The notes beneath the pieces are model-generated. The model was given only the letters and a program-made list of their open reading frames with translations, did no database searches and was not told the DNA's origin. A DNA stretch of 64,000 nt from Paludibacter sp. (GTDB lineage Bacteria > Bacteroidota > Bacteroidia > Bacteroidales > Paludibacteraceae): assembly GCA_031292575.1 (NCBI GenBank), contig JARLGX010000003.1, positions 1 through 64,000 of the forward strand. The letters run 5' to 3'. Numbering within the stretch: position 1 is the stretch's first letter; every line of letters starts with the position of its first letter. The translations under genes and the position numbers were made by a program. Below, one piece after another: positions 17,253 through 27,879 of this stretch.

Positions 17253-18290
17253 TTATTTGGAAGAGTCAATAACTAAACCATTTTTGATAAAATTGTCTAC
17301 CACTTCACTTTCTAATAAACCATCTTCATTAGTCAATATCCAATCACTTGTTTCCGGATATCCATGCCAAAAGTCTTTTGGGCAAACTTTTGTTCCATTG
17401 TTAAGTAATGCAGGTTTATACGAAAATGAGCTTTTACTTGTAATCAATAAATCGGCATAAACCATGTGTAAAAACGAGTCCTGAGCACTCATATCCAAAC
17501 AGAAATGAATATTTTCAAATTCTTCAAAATCGGCGAAGTCTTTTCTATTTCCCTGAGAGAACAAATAAATAGCTATCGGCTTTATCGGTTTAAGATTTTC
17601 TATTATAGTTGAAAGCGCTGTTTTAAAATAGTCATTTGTCTGCCATCGCATTAATAAATTTTGATTATGATTTATCTGACCCTCAACAATGTCTCCTCTT
17701 CGAACATGTATTGCAATATTAAAATTATCTTTCGAATAGATTAGTTTATCCTTATCTCTTGCTTTTGTTTTGTAAAACTTATCTTTAATTTCATCAATTA
17801 CTCCAAATTGGTCACGATAAAATTGATCTTGTTCAGCCACAAAAACGACTCGTTTATTGCTGTACGATGCAATAATATTTTTTATAAGCGTCGCTTCTTT
17901 GCTATTGAATTCATGAAATAATGGAAGCAAAACTTTTTTATAACCTTGTTCTTCAACTAATTTTTTAGCCGTTATTTCATTATCGCCAAACCCTAAAAAC
18001 TGTTCCCATGAATTTTGCGTAAATGGGAAATGTGCAAATTTTAATCCGAATTGTTTTGCAAACCAGTACCCAGCTATCCAGTTAGCCATTTGATGACCAA
18101 TACCTGCTCCGGGATTCGGTCTTGCTCCATAATAAAAAGATTCTTTCTTTGTAATTTTATTCTTTTTATTGAACAAATAATGCCAAAAAGATTGATAAAT
18201 ATATGGATATACGCTTTTATCCCGAGTGTAGGAAACTATATAATACCACAACTTGGCTTTTACTTTAAATAGAAAAAGTTTAATTATCAT
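17253..18290 (-). CDS. GT11-like alpha-1,2-fucosyltransferase family protein
   Basis: The mid-protein motif IHVRRGD is the hallmark of alpha-1,2-fucosyltransferases (HxRRGD binds the GDP-fucose phosphate). The N-terminal GAGIGHQMANWIAGYWFAK corresponds to the family's GxLGNQ-type motif. The C-terminal LLITSKSSFSYKPALLN matches the SxFS..A block. Length is a little above typical GT11 enzymes. This suggests fucose or a related deoxyhexose in the cluster 1 polymer. No GDP-fucose synthesis gene is in the window. It overlaps the next gene by 11 nt. Confidence 0.78.
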   Translation of the reverse strand: MIIKLFLFKVKAKLWYYIVSYTRDKSVYPYIYQSFWHYLFNKKNKITKKESFYYGARPNPGAGIGHQMANWIAGYWFAKQFGLKFAHFPFTQNSWEQFLGFGDNEITAKKLVEEQGYKKVLLPLFHEFNSKEATLIKNIIASYSNKRVVFVAEQDQFYRDQFGVIDEIKDKFYKTKARDKDKLIYSKDNFNIAIHVRRGDIVEGQINHNQNLLMRWQTNDYFKTALSTIIENLKPIKPIAIYLFSQGNRKDFADFEEFENIHFCLDMSAQDSFLHMVYADLLITSKSSFSYKPALLNNGTKVCPKDFWHGYPETSDWILTNEDGLLESEVVDNFIKNGLVIDSSK

Positions 18291-23504: not shown

Positions 23505-24437
23505 TTAAAATTTCACCTTGAAAACAGTCAATGCTATACTGGTTAATGTCAACAAAACAGATAAAGAGGAAATGCCAAACGATTCTGCTGCACCATAATT
23601 TGATGACTTCGATTTCGATTTATTTGGCTCTACATATACAACATCATTTTGTTCCAGATAATAAGCAGGCGAATAAATAATATTCCGATCATTCAAATTC
23701 AACGTAATATATTCTTTAGAACCGTCGTAATTTTCGCGTAATACCTTTACATTGTTGCGTTGTCCGTAAATTGTTAAGTCACCGGCCAAAGCCAATCCTT
23801 CAAAAATTGTAAGCCGGTCATTAGTAGTTTCATATTTTCCGGGTCTAAGAACTTCTCCCAATATATTGACCGAATAATTTGTAAACCTGATAGTAATAAT
23901 GGGTGTTTCTTTGGTAAAAGCAGATGCCAACTTTTTATGTAAAATCGATTCAAGCTCACCACGGGTTAATCCGGCAACCTTTATTTTCCCAAAAACAGGA
24001 AATTCGATATTTCCATCATTATCCACTTCATAGGTCTGCAACGTTGGCTGGGTAGAAAGGATATTTTGAGTAGAGGCAGTTTCTATTTGAGGCATTATAA
24101 GATTATACATACGGGAAGCATCGGGTTCGGAACTAACCACGGTAATGCTAAGCATGTCTTTTGGCTTTATGCGAGCTTCGTATAATCCTTCTGAATTTTT
24201 TTCTAAATCGTAATTTTCGGAAAATTTTGATTGTGAAGAAAGTACCGTACTTTTTTGTAAGTTTAATGAACTGGCTTGATTGCTGTCGGAACCTAAAGAA
24301 TTCTTTTGAGGGTTTGAGCGTTCTGTTGAATTGTCAAGCTTTTGAAAGTATGCAATATCTTTCACTCCTGCACAGGAAGCCAATAAAAAGATAGTCAATA
24401 CTAAGAAAGGAACTTTGAATATTACATTGTAATTCAT
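23505..24437 (-). CDS. Wza-type outer-membrane polysaccharide export lipoprotein (cluster 1)
   Basis: A lipoprotein signal ends in LLASC, with lipidated Cys22. A linker rich in Ser, Asn and Gln follows (about 30-85), longer than in the cluster 2 paralogue. The polysaccharide export domain (RIKPKDMLSITVVSSEP; VDNDGNIEFPVFGKIKVAG) comes next, then an SLBB-type domain (VNILGEVLRPGKYET) and a C-terminal hydrophobic segment. It forms the export channel with Wzc. It is the first gene of cluster 1, with a structured leader upstream. About 290 nt of untranslated sequence separates it from wzc. Confidence 0.92.
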   Translation of the reverse strand: MNYNVIFKVPFLVLTIFLLASCAGVKDIAYFQKLDNSTERSNPQKNSLGSDSNQASSLNLQKSTVLSSQSKFSENYDLEKNSEGLYEARIKPKDMLSITVVSSEPDASRMYNLIMPQIETASTQNILSTQPTLQTYEVDNDGNIEFPVFGKIKVAGLTRGELESILHKKLASAFTKETPIITIRFTNYSVNILGEVLRPGKYETTNDRLTIFEGLALAGDLTIYGQRNNVKVLRENYDGSKEYITLNLNDRNIIYSPAYYLEQNDVVYVEPNKSKSKSSNYGAAESFGISSLSVLLTLTSIALTVFKVKF

Positions 24438-24620: not shown

Positions 24621-25286
24621 TACATAAAAATTACAACAATCAATATCTTTTTATAATTGTTGTTTCTATATTAATTACTTGAGATAAAAAACATTAAACA
24701 GCAAAAGTAATCATAATTTGTGAATCATTATAGTTTAATAGGATTCTATTTAAAATAATGTTTAAAATAGTTATCTACCTATGTATTGTTTAACAATGAC
24801 AATGAGAAAAAAGTTTTGGACAAAAATCAAAATATTTACTTTGTAATAGAAATTTATTTTAAATAGCAGTGCCTGATTATGGCTACTACATTGATTTATA
24901 AGCAATGAAAAGAATAGATCACTTTATTTTGAATAATAATTTATCTTTCAGAGTTATCCATAAAAATATTTATTGGGGGTAAAAGCAAAAAATTAGAGCA
25001 TAAGTCAAACCGGATATGTTTTAAAATGGAATTTTTTATATCGAACTCACTAAGTAATGGCACAAATATAATGTTGCATATTTTTCAATGGCGATAATAT
25101 TTTACATCCCTTTTAGAGGCTTGAGGCGATAAAACACAGTTTATAAACTACCCCTAATTATCTCCCTTTAGTCACTGACCGTTCGATTCTCCCAAAAAGG
25201 AACTTGAAGTATACAACTGTATTGAGAAAACGTACTCTTTGAAAAATTCGACATTATTTAAGTTTTCAACCATGCTTTTTTAAGCG
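24621..25286. other. Intergenic sequence without a gene upstream of EPS cluster 1
   Basis: No open frame with gene-like features is seen. The one notable item is TATATCGAACTCAC at 25037-25050, the exact reverse complement of GTGAGTTCGATATA at 25862-25875 inside R1b. It may be the remnant of an R1-type right end, and it makes the 25.04-25.87 kb block look as if bounded by 14-bp inverted repeats. Confidence 0.45.
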
Positions 25287-25329
25287 AAAAAAAATACCTC
25301 CATAAAGCACAAGAATGCTCTCGGAGGTA
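25287..25329 (-). terminator. R2a hairpin with U-run, likely terminator
   Basis: TACCTCC (25295-25301) pairs with GGAGGTA (25323-25329), with an inner AGCA/TGCT stem. Eight A residues lie on the low-coordinate side, so minus-strand RNA crossing array A would meet a hairpin and then a U-run. Its 32-bp core (25303-25334) recurs at 26276-26307 with three differences. Confidence 0.6.
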
Positions 25330-25332
25330 AAT

Positions 25333-25503
25333 TTAGTTTATGTTTACATCGTTTATTGAATAGACCCTAAACTCCATTTCATAACAAGTAAATTGAATTT
25401 CACGATAAGTAAATGACATTTCACAACAAGTAAATTGAGTTTCACAATAAGTAAACTCCATTTCACGATAAGTAAATTGAATTTCACGATAAGTAAACTC
25501 CAT
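25333..25503 (-). CDS. Possible 56-residue heptad-repeat ORF inside array A
   Basis: Because the array period is 21 bp, the minus strand stays open across units 1-6 and encodes seven-residue repeats of the form (M/I/T)-(E/Q)-F-T-Y-R-E, then the tail MEFRVYSINDVNIN. It runs from an ATG at 25503 to a TAA at 25333, four bases before the R2a hairpin. An in-frame stop at 25546-25548 closes the frame upstream. I see no clear ribosome-binding site, and the rest of the array is not open in this frame, so translation is doubtful. Confidence 0.2.
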   Translation of the reverse strand: MEFTYREIQFTYREMEFTYCETQFTCCEMSFTYREIQFTCYEMEFRVYSINDVNIN

Positions 25504-25817
25504 TTCACGATAAGTAAATTGAGTTTCACGATAAGTAAATTGAATTTACCGATTGATAAAAACGATTTAACAATATGAAAACATAATTTCCCAATAGGAA
25601 ATAGGCATTTTTTATCGAAAAAAATTAAATTTCATTCTGAAAATTAAAATTACCGACATGAATAATCAATTTCACGATAAGTAAATTGAATTTACCAACA
25701 GGTAAATTGAGTTTACCAACAAGTAAATTAGATTTACCTATCGGTAAAAATGCTTTCACGATAGTGAAAAGGCGTATAACTACCGTGAATATGCGATTTC
25801 AGATTTATGAAAACAGC
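25377..25817. repeat. Array A: 21 units of a 21-bp palindromic repeat
   Basis: Units start at 25377, 25398, 25419, 25440, 25461, 25482, 25503, 25524, 25545, 25566, 25587 and 25608, resume at 25670, 25691, 25712, 25733, 25754 and 25775, and end with 25797-25817. The period is 21 bp with only about one base of slippage around 25608-25669 and one more near 25775. Each unit is a roughly 16-bp palindrome plus a 5-bp linker. The arms differ between units but stay complementary: TTTACC/GGTAAA, TTTCAC/GTGAAA, TTTCC/GGAAA, TTTTTT/AAAAAA, TTTCA/TGAAA. Units 2-8 are nearly uniform, as if recently amplified. Confidence 0.85.
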
Positions 25818-25857: not shown

Positions 25858-26150
25858 TAACGTGAGTTCGATATAAGCAAGCTTCTATGAATGAACTGAA
25901 TTTCATTTTAAAATCCTGAAAGGTGGGGGTGTCAAAAATCTGATTCAAACAAATAGTTTTCCCTTGCTCCTTTTTGTTTGGTGCTACGCACCTTATAATT
26001 ATCATTTTTTTATAATTCTACCAATGGTTCGCAACTACAAGGTGCGTAGCACCGAACATAAAATGAAGATTGAAATAAGAACGTCTGTTTATAAATGTGA
26101 AACCTGATTTTCTACACCACATCCTTCGGGTTTATAAACAGAGAGATTAA
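25858..26150. repeat. R1b: truncated second copy of the terminal-inverted-repeat element
   Basis: It begins with the same TAACGTGAGTTCGAT end and follows R1a (274-650) in the same orientation with scattered base changes. It lacks an internal stretch of about 60 bp of R1a, including the extra hairpin core. It loses similarity after GAGAGATTAA, so the right terminal repeat is missing. No transposase gene is seen near either copy. Confidence 0.75.
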
Positions 26151-26275
26151 GTGATGGTTATAGATAGCGTACTATTACCTTAGTTAAATATTTGTAAACT
26201 AAACCATTTCACCAAATAATGTTGATTTCTTAAATGGAAAGGCATACTCTTTTAAGTCTTAAAAAAGCACAGCCG

Positions 26276-26307
26276 TAAAGCACAGGATTGCTCTCGGAGT
26301 TAAATTT
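26276..26307. repeat. R2b: second copy of the 32-bp R2 core
   Basis: It matches 25303-25334 at 29 of 32 positions (shared TAAAGCACA and TGCTCTCGGAG). The outer stem of R2a is not conserved here, so it is a weaker hairpin. R2a and R2b bracket array A and R1b. Confidence 0.55.
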
Positions 26308-26571: not shown

Positions 26572-27879
26572 TTAATTTCTTGTTACCAATATCTTTCTCA
26601 CTTCAATTGTCTTATTATTGTTATCGGATATCATTACTAAATAAATACCAGTATTTAAATTACTGGTATTTATTTCTGTTCTACTGCTTGTCAGGGATTG
26701 TTCTATAATTCTTTGACCGCTCAAATTGTAAATAGCAATTTTTTCGTTGTTTAAGGTGTCTAACGTAACTACCATAGATTTACCAAACACTGGATTTGGA
26801 TAAATTTTATATCCTACCGTTGGAGTAATCGTTGTTCCGGTAGTTGTTCCAGTAGTTACTGCTGCTTTAGCTCTTGAAATATCCTGAGGAAGTATGGACG
26901 CATTCAATGTACGGTCAACTATATTAGTATTTAATCCAATAGCCTTAGCGCATTTATTCCCTGCATAAGATAAAGCTATATAAGTATGTTCGTCACCATT
27001 ACTTATATAGTATAGTCCCCTGTTATTCCTCCATGTGTTTTCTCTACATGCAGTAGTGTCTGAATTAGTGGTAAAATTAGTCATAATATAGCCATCAGCA
27101 TTATTACTTGGATTAGCCAATGCCTGTGATTGATAGATAATATTATTTTCAACAATTGTATTTGTTGCACCCGCATTCCCAATAGCTCCGCTTGTTATAT
27201 TTACTACTATATTATTTTTAACATGAATATAAGAACCGCCATTGTCGCCAAATGTTATTCCACTACCCGTATGGTTTGCCGTATTATAATCGCCACCTCT
27301 GAACCAATTTCCAATTATCTCTATGGAGTCATTTACTGAACCGTACGAAGCATATATGCTAACCATATCATCCACGTGAGACTGTAAATGTATATTCTCA
27401 AAACTATTAAAGTTTATCTGACTCCCCCCACCACCATTCACACTTGCGAACATAACTGCATGATGTCCAGGCCATCCACCAATGATATTTTTAAAATAAT
27501 TATGAATAACTTTAATTCCCGACGATGTGCCATTATTAAATGGATTAGAAGCATTACTGTTTGAAAGTATTCCATCAGCAACTGAATCAAATACGCAATC
27601 TTGAATTATCAAATTCTTAGAATTTTCTGCAGAAATAGCTCTAAAAGCAGACTTAGAAAATTTACAATTTTGGATTGTAATATTAGTGCACTCCCATAAA
27701 TTAATGTTATTTTGACTAAGTCCTGTGAAACTTAAACCATCTATTACCTTATTACTTACACCGCCCCAATTAATTGCCCCTGATGGAGTATATGGACCGG
27801 TGTATCTTGTTCCTTGTCCATAAGTGGAACTAAGAAATATTAGTAGCAATATTGAAATTAATAAAAACTGTTTTTTCAT
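26572..27879 (-). CDS. Secreted right-handed beta-helix protein with T9SS sorting domain
   Basis: It has an N-terminal signal peptide (MKKQFLLISILLLIFLSS, cleavage near TYGQ). Parallel beta-helix coils rich in Asn run over about 35-330 (NLIIQDCVFDSV, INFNSFENIH, IHVKNNIVVNI, TIVENNIIYQS), the pattern of pectate-lyase-like carbohydrate-active or adhesive proteins. A Thr-rich linker follows, and then a C-terminal domain beginning YKIYPNPV and ending GIYLVMI...RKILV, the type A sorting signal of the type IX secretion system. It should be exported and anchored at the cell surface. Lying next to the EPS locus it may bind or cut the polysaccharide (inference). Confidence 0.85.
   Translation of the reverse strand: MKKQFLLISILLLIFLSSTYGQGTRYTGPYTPSGAINWGGVSNKVIDGLSFTGLSQNNINLWECTNITIQNCKFSKSAFRAISAENSKNLIIQDCVFDSVADGILSNSNASNPFNNGTSSGIKVIHNYFKNIIGGWPGHHAVMFASVNGGGGSQINFNSFENIHLQSHVDDMVSIYASYGSVNDSIEIIGNWFRGGDYNTANHTGSGITFGDNGGSYIHVKNNIVVNITSGAIGNAGATNTIVENNIIYQSQALANPSNNADGYIMTNFTTNSDTTACRENTWRNNRGLYYISNGDEHTYIALSYAGNKCAKAIGLNTNIVDRTLNASILPQDISRAKAAVTTGTTTGTTITPTVGYKIYPNPVFGKSMVVTLDTLNNEKIAIYNLSGQRIIEQSLTSSRTEINTSNLNTGIYLVMISDNNNKTIEVRKILVTRN

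Follow-up and report, generated by a model that had tools for sequence, protein, structure and literature searches.

What makes and maintains a row of short palindromes between two genes when its period is kept and its sequence is not? The question is raised by array A, a run of about 21 units of 21 bp in a stretch of 64,000 nucleotides (the window) from a Paludibacter genome. This genome measures 3.46 Mb and belongs to a GTDB-type genus, of which 48 genomes were compared. The first-pass annotation had described a 21-bp phase held over 21 units, with palindrome arms that co-vary, and had offered three readings: a protein-binding array, a structural RNA or the substrate of an amplification process. 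The features of the locus are collected in Table 1.

Table 1. Array A and the features that surround it, with positions in the window.
Feature	Position	Strand	Remarks
Polysaccharide export protein gene	23505..24437	-	PF02563, 2.2e-17; start 940 bp from array A
Terminus of the MITE family of 25860..26154	25036..25052	-	2 mismatches; tip towards array A
58-bp direct repeat, first	25277..25334	+	78% like the second, which lies across array A
Decayed IS256-family terminus, TTTACATCGTTTATTGAATAGACCC	25343..25367	+	4/25 mismatches to CTGACACAGTTTATTGAATAGACCC; tip faces array A
Array A	25368..25817	+	About 21 units of 21 bp, TTT-N3-N4-N3-AAA-N5
Homogeneous block of array A, adjoining the IS256 terminus	25377..25544	+	8 near-identical imperfect dyads TTTCACgataAGTAAA, recurring 5-nt spacers
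Divergent block of array A	25545..25817	+	13 units with differing arms; 4 units with 6/6 pairs
MITE copy	25860..26154	+	Terminus ACGTGAGTTCGATATAA at 25860-25876; right terminus not recognised
58-bp direct repeat, second	26250..26307	+	Both repeats contain AAAGCACAAGAATGCTCTCGGAGGTAAATTT
Secreted protein gene, C-terminal sorting tail	26572..27879	-	PF18962, 4.4e-13; stop 755 bp from array A

When the sequence from 25377 to 25817 is set out in rows of 21, it follows the layout TTT-N3-N4-N3-AAA-N5 with some departures. TRF returned a period of 21 or 42 at 25368-25547 and at 25679-25738, and also gave 42 bp as a period of the homogeneous block. When periods 15-30 were compared over the 64-kb window, the top result in 15 of 15 parameter settings was period 21, at or overlapping the array. 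The period and the layout are thus real, but the phase is not continuous: it is broken by one 20-bp step (25629-25649) and one 22-bp step (25775-25797). A CRISPR array was rejected, as the annotation had done for want of spacers, since the units adjoin, the 5-nt spacers recur and there are no unique spacers. Membership of a REP/BIME family was also rejected, the consensus unit (at most 3 mismatches) having no copy in its own genome outside array A. We found no relative with the same array.

The co-variation of the arms holds for one part of the array. The eight units at 25377-25544 pair essentially through the outer TTT/AAA positions (3/6 pairs, and 4/6 in the first unit), whereas the units at 25608, 25691, 25733 and 25754 have all 6/6 pairs. 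Of the 39 inner pairs in the last 13 units, 24 are complementary, where 15.4 would be expected with the right arms dealt anew (p = 0.0045). The same test over all 21 units is not significant (25/63 against 20.5 expected, p = 0.11), because the first eight units are copies of one imperfect dyad. Hence, the claim that the arms co-vary stands for the last 13 units, but not for the first eight, which are near-identical and show no co-variation. One of the arm pairs put forward earlier, TTTTTT/AAAAAA, is of low complexity and is poor evidence of co-variation.

The 2.1 kb between the polysaccharide export and the secreted protein genes hold no open reading frame of 70 aa. The array starts on the base after the decayed IS256-family terminus, with no gap, and its right end stands 42 bp before the MITE copy. 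The earlier statement that the array is not a known insertion sequence overlooks these neighbours. The MITE copy aligns to a complete copy at 276-648, over 276-628, with 275 of 354 columns identical, and the interior of the MITE carries an inverted repeat, GGTGCTACGCACC ... GGTGCGTAGCACC. The terminus family has 23 matches in the genome against 2 for the control, and ACGTGAGTTCGATATAA is identical to the first 17 bases of the Porphyromonas gingivalis MITE239 terminus as given in PMC4596501. The 58-bp repeat was not found in the other stretches of the same genome that were searched. Array A is thus flanked by a solo IS256 terminus and a MITE, and mobile DNA has accumulated in the gap that holds it.

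We scanned 411 kb of this genome for chains of dyads at periods 14-32 and 40-44; the window and locus L034 had been chosen, while 20 further stretches were unchosen. At the higher threshold, chains occurred only at periods 21, 41 and 42, and the lower threshold added one chain at period 20 and two at period 25. A control for mirror symmetry gave one chain at the higher threshold (period 14) and five at the lower one (periods 14, 14, 16, 21 and 25). The annotation had named shuffled AT-rich sequence as a comparison that could undo its dyads; one dinucleotide shuffle of the 411 kb gave no chain at the five periods tried, and so no period-21 chain at the lower threshold. In G068, a genome of another genus, 223 kb of stretches unchosen for arrays contained no period-21 dyad chain. 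At locus L034 (5570-6110, contig C23 of the genome of array A), a 7-bp repeat tract (GAGTAAA/GAGCAAA) is followed directly by a 21-bp dyad array and another stretch of 21-bp period. The gene downstream of these arrays is presumably sugar nucleotidyltransferase-like.

We then counted periods with TRF in 1.33 Mb of the genome of array A and its genus relatives, taken without regard to arrays, and classed the arrays that were intergenic. The count leaves out periods below 17, arrays in open reading frames, the CRISPR-like rows of L119 and the bait arrays (array A, L165 and L167). The two TRF rows of L122 were counted as one array, L116 was counted at 21 bp although TRF also gives 42, and the two blocks of L148 were counted as two arrays. 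This left 16 intergenic arrays with periods of 21 bp (five), 22 bp (two), 24 bp (one), 41 bp (three) and 42 bp (five). Fifteen of the 16 (14 of 15 if the blocks of L148 are merged) thus fall on 21, 22, 41 or 42 bp (binomial p ~2e-15 against a flat distribution over 17-62, with both the range and the set of periods picked post hoc). The 266 kb drawn from 20 further genomes of the order, a small sample, contained no such intergenic array. In the unchosen stretches of G068, the periods of the intergenic arrays were 22 and 54, again counting from 17 upwards. The rows left out at L119 (13788-17341, contig C8 of the genome of array A) correspond to a CRISPR-like array with the repeat CTTCCAATTGAACCCAATGGAATTGAAAT.

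The 16 arrays sampled in this unbiased way have an excess of dyads when taken together (sum of z 24.7, with a null standard deviation of 4.1 when columns are shuffled within arrays); seven are significant singly at p ≤ 0.05 and nine are not. This excess and the last 13 units of array A both support the earlier proposal that dyads and a two-turn period are kept while the sequence differs. Array A thus belongs to a class of palindromic minisatellites in intergenic DNA that share a basic unit of 21 bp, the period being 42 or 41 bp where two unit types alternate. Three sets of loci (L242 and L173; L274 and L120; L262 and G033:C3:2098-2460) have the same array sequence at two or more places in one genome, which implies that array sequence can be copied within a genome. 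In each of these sets, one member has a good IS256 terminus; at the other it is absent (L173), or else decayed or absent (L120).

Arrays like these were sought in more distant genomes. The plain TTT-N10-AAA frame was rejected as a defining feature: the pattern TTT-N10-AAA-N5 matched 9 of 149 genomes and its reversed control matched more (13 of 149). In G068, three arrays have the layout of array A; two of them show changes in both arms (TTTCCGtcaaCGGAAA with TTTCTGtcaaCAGAAA, and TTTGTGtcttCACAAA with TTAGTGtcttCACTAA), and the third consists of near-dyads TTTCTCttggGAGAAA. Across 84,980 species genomes, a pattern with fixed TTT/AAA and free inner pairs retrieved 37 stretches; 25 come from records that bear the name of Bacteroidetes or its subgroups, and the rest are scattered. 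In a set of 27 distinct arrays from other genomes, complementarity of the innermost pair was seen in 24 against 13.6 expected; in the same arrays, the wholly free fifth pair is complementary in 12 against 6.9 (p = 0.025) and the fourth in 19 against 14.0 (p = 0.056). The class is thus beyond chance by its inner complementarity and its period, while simple 21-bp arrays with other letters are equally common. A covariance model, R1, matched in 5 of the 48 genus genomes, the place in G045 among them being no convincing array; its training rows had been picked for good dyads, so that its pair counts are biased and were not used as evidence. Arrays of the same layout, TTTCCG/TTTCGG-NNNN-CYGAAA, are also present in Treponema metagenome-assembled genomes (L072, L074 and L087), where they could result from transfer between phyla or from a binning error.

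Within the genus, the class is closely associated with an IS256-family terminus. The sequence TTTATTGAATAGACCC, or most of it, lies directly before array A and the arrays of L116, L156 and L171; L147 was added by searching loci for the terminus. That the 25-base form is an IS terminus is shown by an intact copy in G014 (L279), whose inverted termini lie 1.3 kb apart and are flanked on both sides by an 8-bp target duplication, TATTTCCC. This copy encodes a 403-aa transposase of the IS256 family, of the Mutator type (PF00872, 1.9e-105; NF033543, 3.3e-125). With at most 3 mismatches, the terminus is present in 13 of 60 genomes, i.e. in 13 of the 36 from the genus and in none of the 24 others. The 41 places and L147 make 42 distinct sites, which leave out the window, L156 and L171 (more than 3 mismatches). 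At 22 of these 42 sites, an array of 21n bp stands directly outside the tip, against 17 of 4000 random 250-bp windows (Fisher p ~1e-36), although three sites with a weak 21-bp signal (L244, L255 and L257) were scored as having no array. Conversely, 6 of 20 arrays examined have a terminus at an edge within 9 mismatches, against 0.17 expected, or 5 of 19 without L147, which had entered through the terminus search. The 24 terminus-linked arrays (the 22, array A and L156) also have more dyads than expected (sum of z 32.1, with the standard deviation taken as 4.9), while 17 of them are not significant singly.

Many of these termini are solo. Arrays lie directly outside the tip of 7 of the 20 ends with IS sequence inside and of 15 of the 22 solo termini, the distinction being a cut-off in the local alignment of the 90 bp inside the terminus. 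At two more solo termini the array lies on the inner side, and L242 has repeats to either side. Of the 15 solo termini with arrays outside the tip, nine have 0 mismatches and three (L242, L266 and L280) keep some IS sequence inside. A second inverted terminus was not found in the available sequence within 1.4 kb of array A or of the other scanned sites (best 8-13 mismatches, the intact IS aside). Array A was therefore rejected as a MITE with an internal minisatellite of the BrickBuilt type. The best target duplications around solo termini match at 7 of 9 positions (L260 and L156), with at most 6 of 9 in the other 22 rows, and a duplication spanning terminus plus array found no support. Solo termini, which make up 22 of the 42, would be odd if they were mere decayed IS copies, given that perfect ones are common.

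The explanation that we prefer, and in which we place about even confidence, is that these are palindromic minisatellites that grow by slippage, have their arms kept alike by template switching in hairpins and are used as landing sites by an IS256-family element. Arrays would grow by replication slippage or by unequal exchange of entire units. Units in single strands would fold into hairpins that prime short template switches, in which one arm is copied from the other, so that both arms could change together without selection on a product. An IS256-family element would land at the edges of palindromic DNA and would later be reduced to a solo terminus. A function of the array for the cell would not be needed. 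Template switching within a hairpin copies arm onto arm in one event, and PMC8794818 argues that RNA stems arise and persist in this way; it would thus explain joint arm changes in arrays whose sequence is otherwise not kept. The 21- or 42-bp unit is not accounted for by slippage and template switching, and the arrays without a significant dyad of their own and the many perfect solo termini also speak against the explanation. Array A itself is a palindromic minisatellite that is real and not random. Its class, with units of two or four helix turns and a tie to IS256-family ends, is most likely DNA of a selfish or neutral kind on which IS also land. Among the readings offered at the outset, the substrate of an amplification process is the one that fits best.

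The tie to the terminus could also run the other way: transposase acting at the IS256-family end, with or without the rest of the IS, would repeatedly duplicate the DNA outside it in steps of one or two turns and so make the array. We consider this unlikely. It would suit arrays that start directly outside the tip at 22 of 42 termini, nearly every one with a different sequence, and periods of 21 and 42 bp that approximate two and four helix turns. It would also suit array A itself, in which the most homogeneous units adjoin the terminus. Furthermore, Foldback elements and the Mutator-type Tm1 are described as carrying tandem repeats in their termini (PMC3169594). The last 10-11 bp of the tip are copied at the junctions of L245, L249, L250, L264 and L147, and also of L257, where the array is weak; the first five are those of the 24 arrays that start with a tip copy of 9/10 or better. 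However, at a looser cut of 7/10, tip-like words are as common at termini without arrays (4/20) as at those with arrays (6/24). The units do not resemble the terminus, and the 22 arrays show no growth gradient from the tip, the mean identity at a lag of 42 being 0.56 at the first step and 0.83 at the fifth, then falling.

The IS copies themselves also argue against this order of events. Matching 8-bp duplications flank three IS copies among 14 ends (TTGAAATT and TGAAGATA in the same genome as array A, TGAATTTG in G019), and each of the three has an array on one side only. IS ends of the genome of array A are identical over the 90-100 bp seen, yet their three arrays have diverged strongly, with a self-identity of only 0.49-0.64. 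Arrays also exist without the terminus: G028 has arrays and lacks the terminus in its whole genome, and none within 6 mismatches was found at the G068 loci or at the loci of the 37 stretches. Since arrays are also present where the IS is not, and seem to be the older of the two, the IS256-family element most likely inserts where an array already stands, much as some IS enter REP palindromes, an analogy joined here to an association and to target duplications observed in sequence. PMC1525189 describes IS of five families that target REP palindromes, and the IS256-family ISRm5 was at such a palindrome in 5 of 7 cases. No clean empty site turned up when the genus was searched with L262. The homogeneous units next to the terminus of array A and the tip copies at array starts suit an IS that acts on an array. 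That the terminus, even solo, would be an amplifier through which transposase duplicates or rebuilds the outside DNA by helix turns, giving locus-specific palindromic arrays of 21 or 42 bp, seems rather improbable to us; if true, it would be a de novo source of hairpin DNA.

We also doubt that the arrays act as RNA, their transcript forming a string of small hairpins that would protect, space or attenuate mRNA in leaders or between the genes of operons. Three G068 arrays fill gaps between co-directional genes, as this reading would have it, but among 15 genus arrays seven lie in divergent gaps and one in a convergent gap, co-directional gaps being also present. A selected RNA should have its mismatches as G-U on the transcribed strand; in the five arrays tested, the single mismatches are G-T or A-C according to the array, regardless of the strand transcribed. 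No Rfam family matched the window at gathering score. A case in favour is L118, where the array at 18081-18263 stands 15 bp after a promoter-like box, TATCTTTG, and before a FecCD permease gene; in G033 and G038, a box of this kind is followed instead, by eye, by a single long hairpin of another sequence. Against this, 20 of 26 orthologous permease gaps measure only 7-70 bp and the six longer ones (102-291 bp) have by eye no array; these 26 were read from the loci of 29 relatives, three of which gave no gap. Within 90 bp of the 50 edges of 25 arrays, the promoter box TANNTTTG is near only L118 (15 bp) and one edge of L037 (7 bp), and its other six matches are 50-80 bp from array edges, so that such a box was rejected as a general companion of arrays. 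A leader-hairpin role is possible at L118, but not in general; the structural RNA first suggested is, overall, rather unlikely. The whole gap at L118 (17979-18312, contig C7 of the genome of array A), between the genes of a periplasmic binding protein and of the permease, holds a terminator-like hairpin, the TATCTTTG box and the 21-bp dyad array.

Binding by a dimeric nucleoid or regulatory protein, with one dyad per two turns on one face of the helix, is in our view quite unlikely. The period of 21 bp with steps of 20-22 bp, the dyads and the intergenic position, often upstream of genes, are what such a protein would call for. Yet several arrays have no clear dyad, and the arms differ between arrays of one genome. 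Within one genome they include TTTAC/GTAAA, TCCGA/TCGGA with TCTGA/TCAGA (both in L118), TCTACA/TGTAGA (L122) and GTCCTC/GAGGAC (L120), so that no single sequence could be read by one protein; the protein-binding array first suggested is accordingly unlikely. Finally, we dismiss as very improbable a derivation from a protein repeat seven residues long (seven codons making 21 bp): one minus-strand frame is by eye open over part of array A and some 21-bp arrays elsewhere do lie in open reading frames, but periods of 22 and 41 bp and steps of 20 and 22 bp break the frame, no open reading frame of 70 aa covers array A, and a stop-free 21-bp unit stays open by mechanics.

The palindromic minisatellites that we favour resemble several known systems without matching them. 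Like REP/BIME elements, at which IS of five families including IS256 insert (PMC1525189), they are intergenic palindromes, but here the sequences are mostly the locus's own and the units of 21 or 42 bp stand head to tail. BrickBuilt elements and MITE464/PgRS of P. gingivalis are, as described in PMC4596501, likewise intergenic tandem repeats (of 23 and 41 nt) with IS termini and predicted stem-loops. Their repeats lie inside a pair of IS5-type termini and the BrickBuilt copies share one repeat, whereas ours lie outside the tip of one IS256-type terminus and vary by locus. The account in PMC3169594 places the IS256 family with Mutator; Foldback and the Mutator-type Tm1 also tie short tandem repeats to Mutator-type ends, but there the repeats are inside the element and of one sequence, and here they are outside the tip. 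The TAACTGA direct repeats of some Bacteroidetes, Paludibacter included, are also intergenic and of short period, but PMC4679880 describes a single invariant heptamer, which in its main genome mostly stands immediately ahead of start codons, with no dyad required. The titles and opening abstract lines of the literature on 21-bp palindromic repeats of Bacteroidetes, tandem repeats of Paludibacter, minisatellites of helical period, and IS256 with tandem repeats or palindromes gave no account of such arrays. The tie between array A and an IS256-family terminus is new here.

Co-variation between arms is regarded as the best evidence that a structure is under selection. Arrays that combine co-variation with mostly locus-own sequences and IS targeting would offer a natural way to test whether dyads can arise and persist through template switching alone, and would call for caution in RNA searches in Bacteroidota. 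Their narrow set of periods (21, 22, 41 and 42 bp) calls for a mechanism that counts helix turns. At solo IS256 termini with arrays, the choice of a target by the IS and duplication driven by its end can be separated experimentally.
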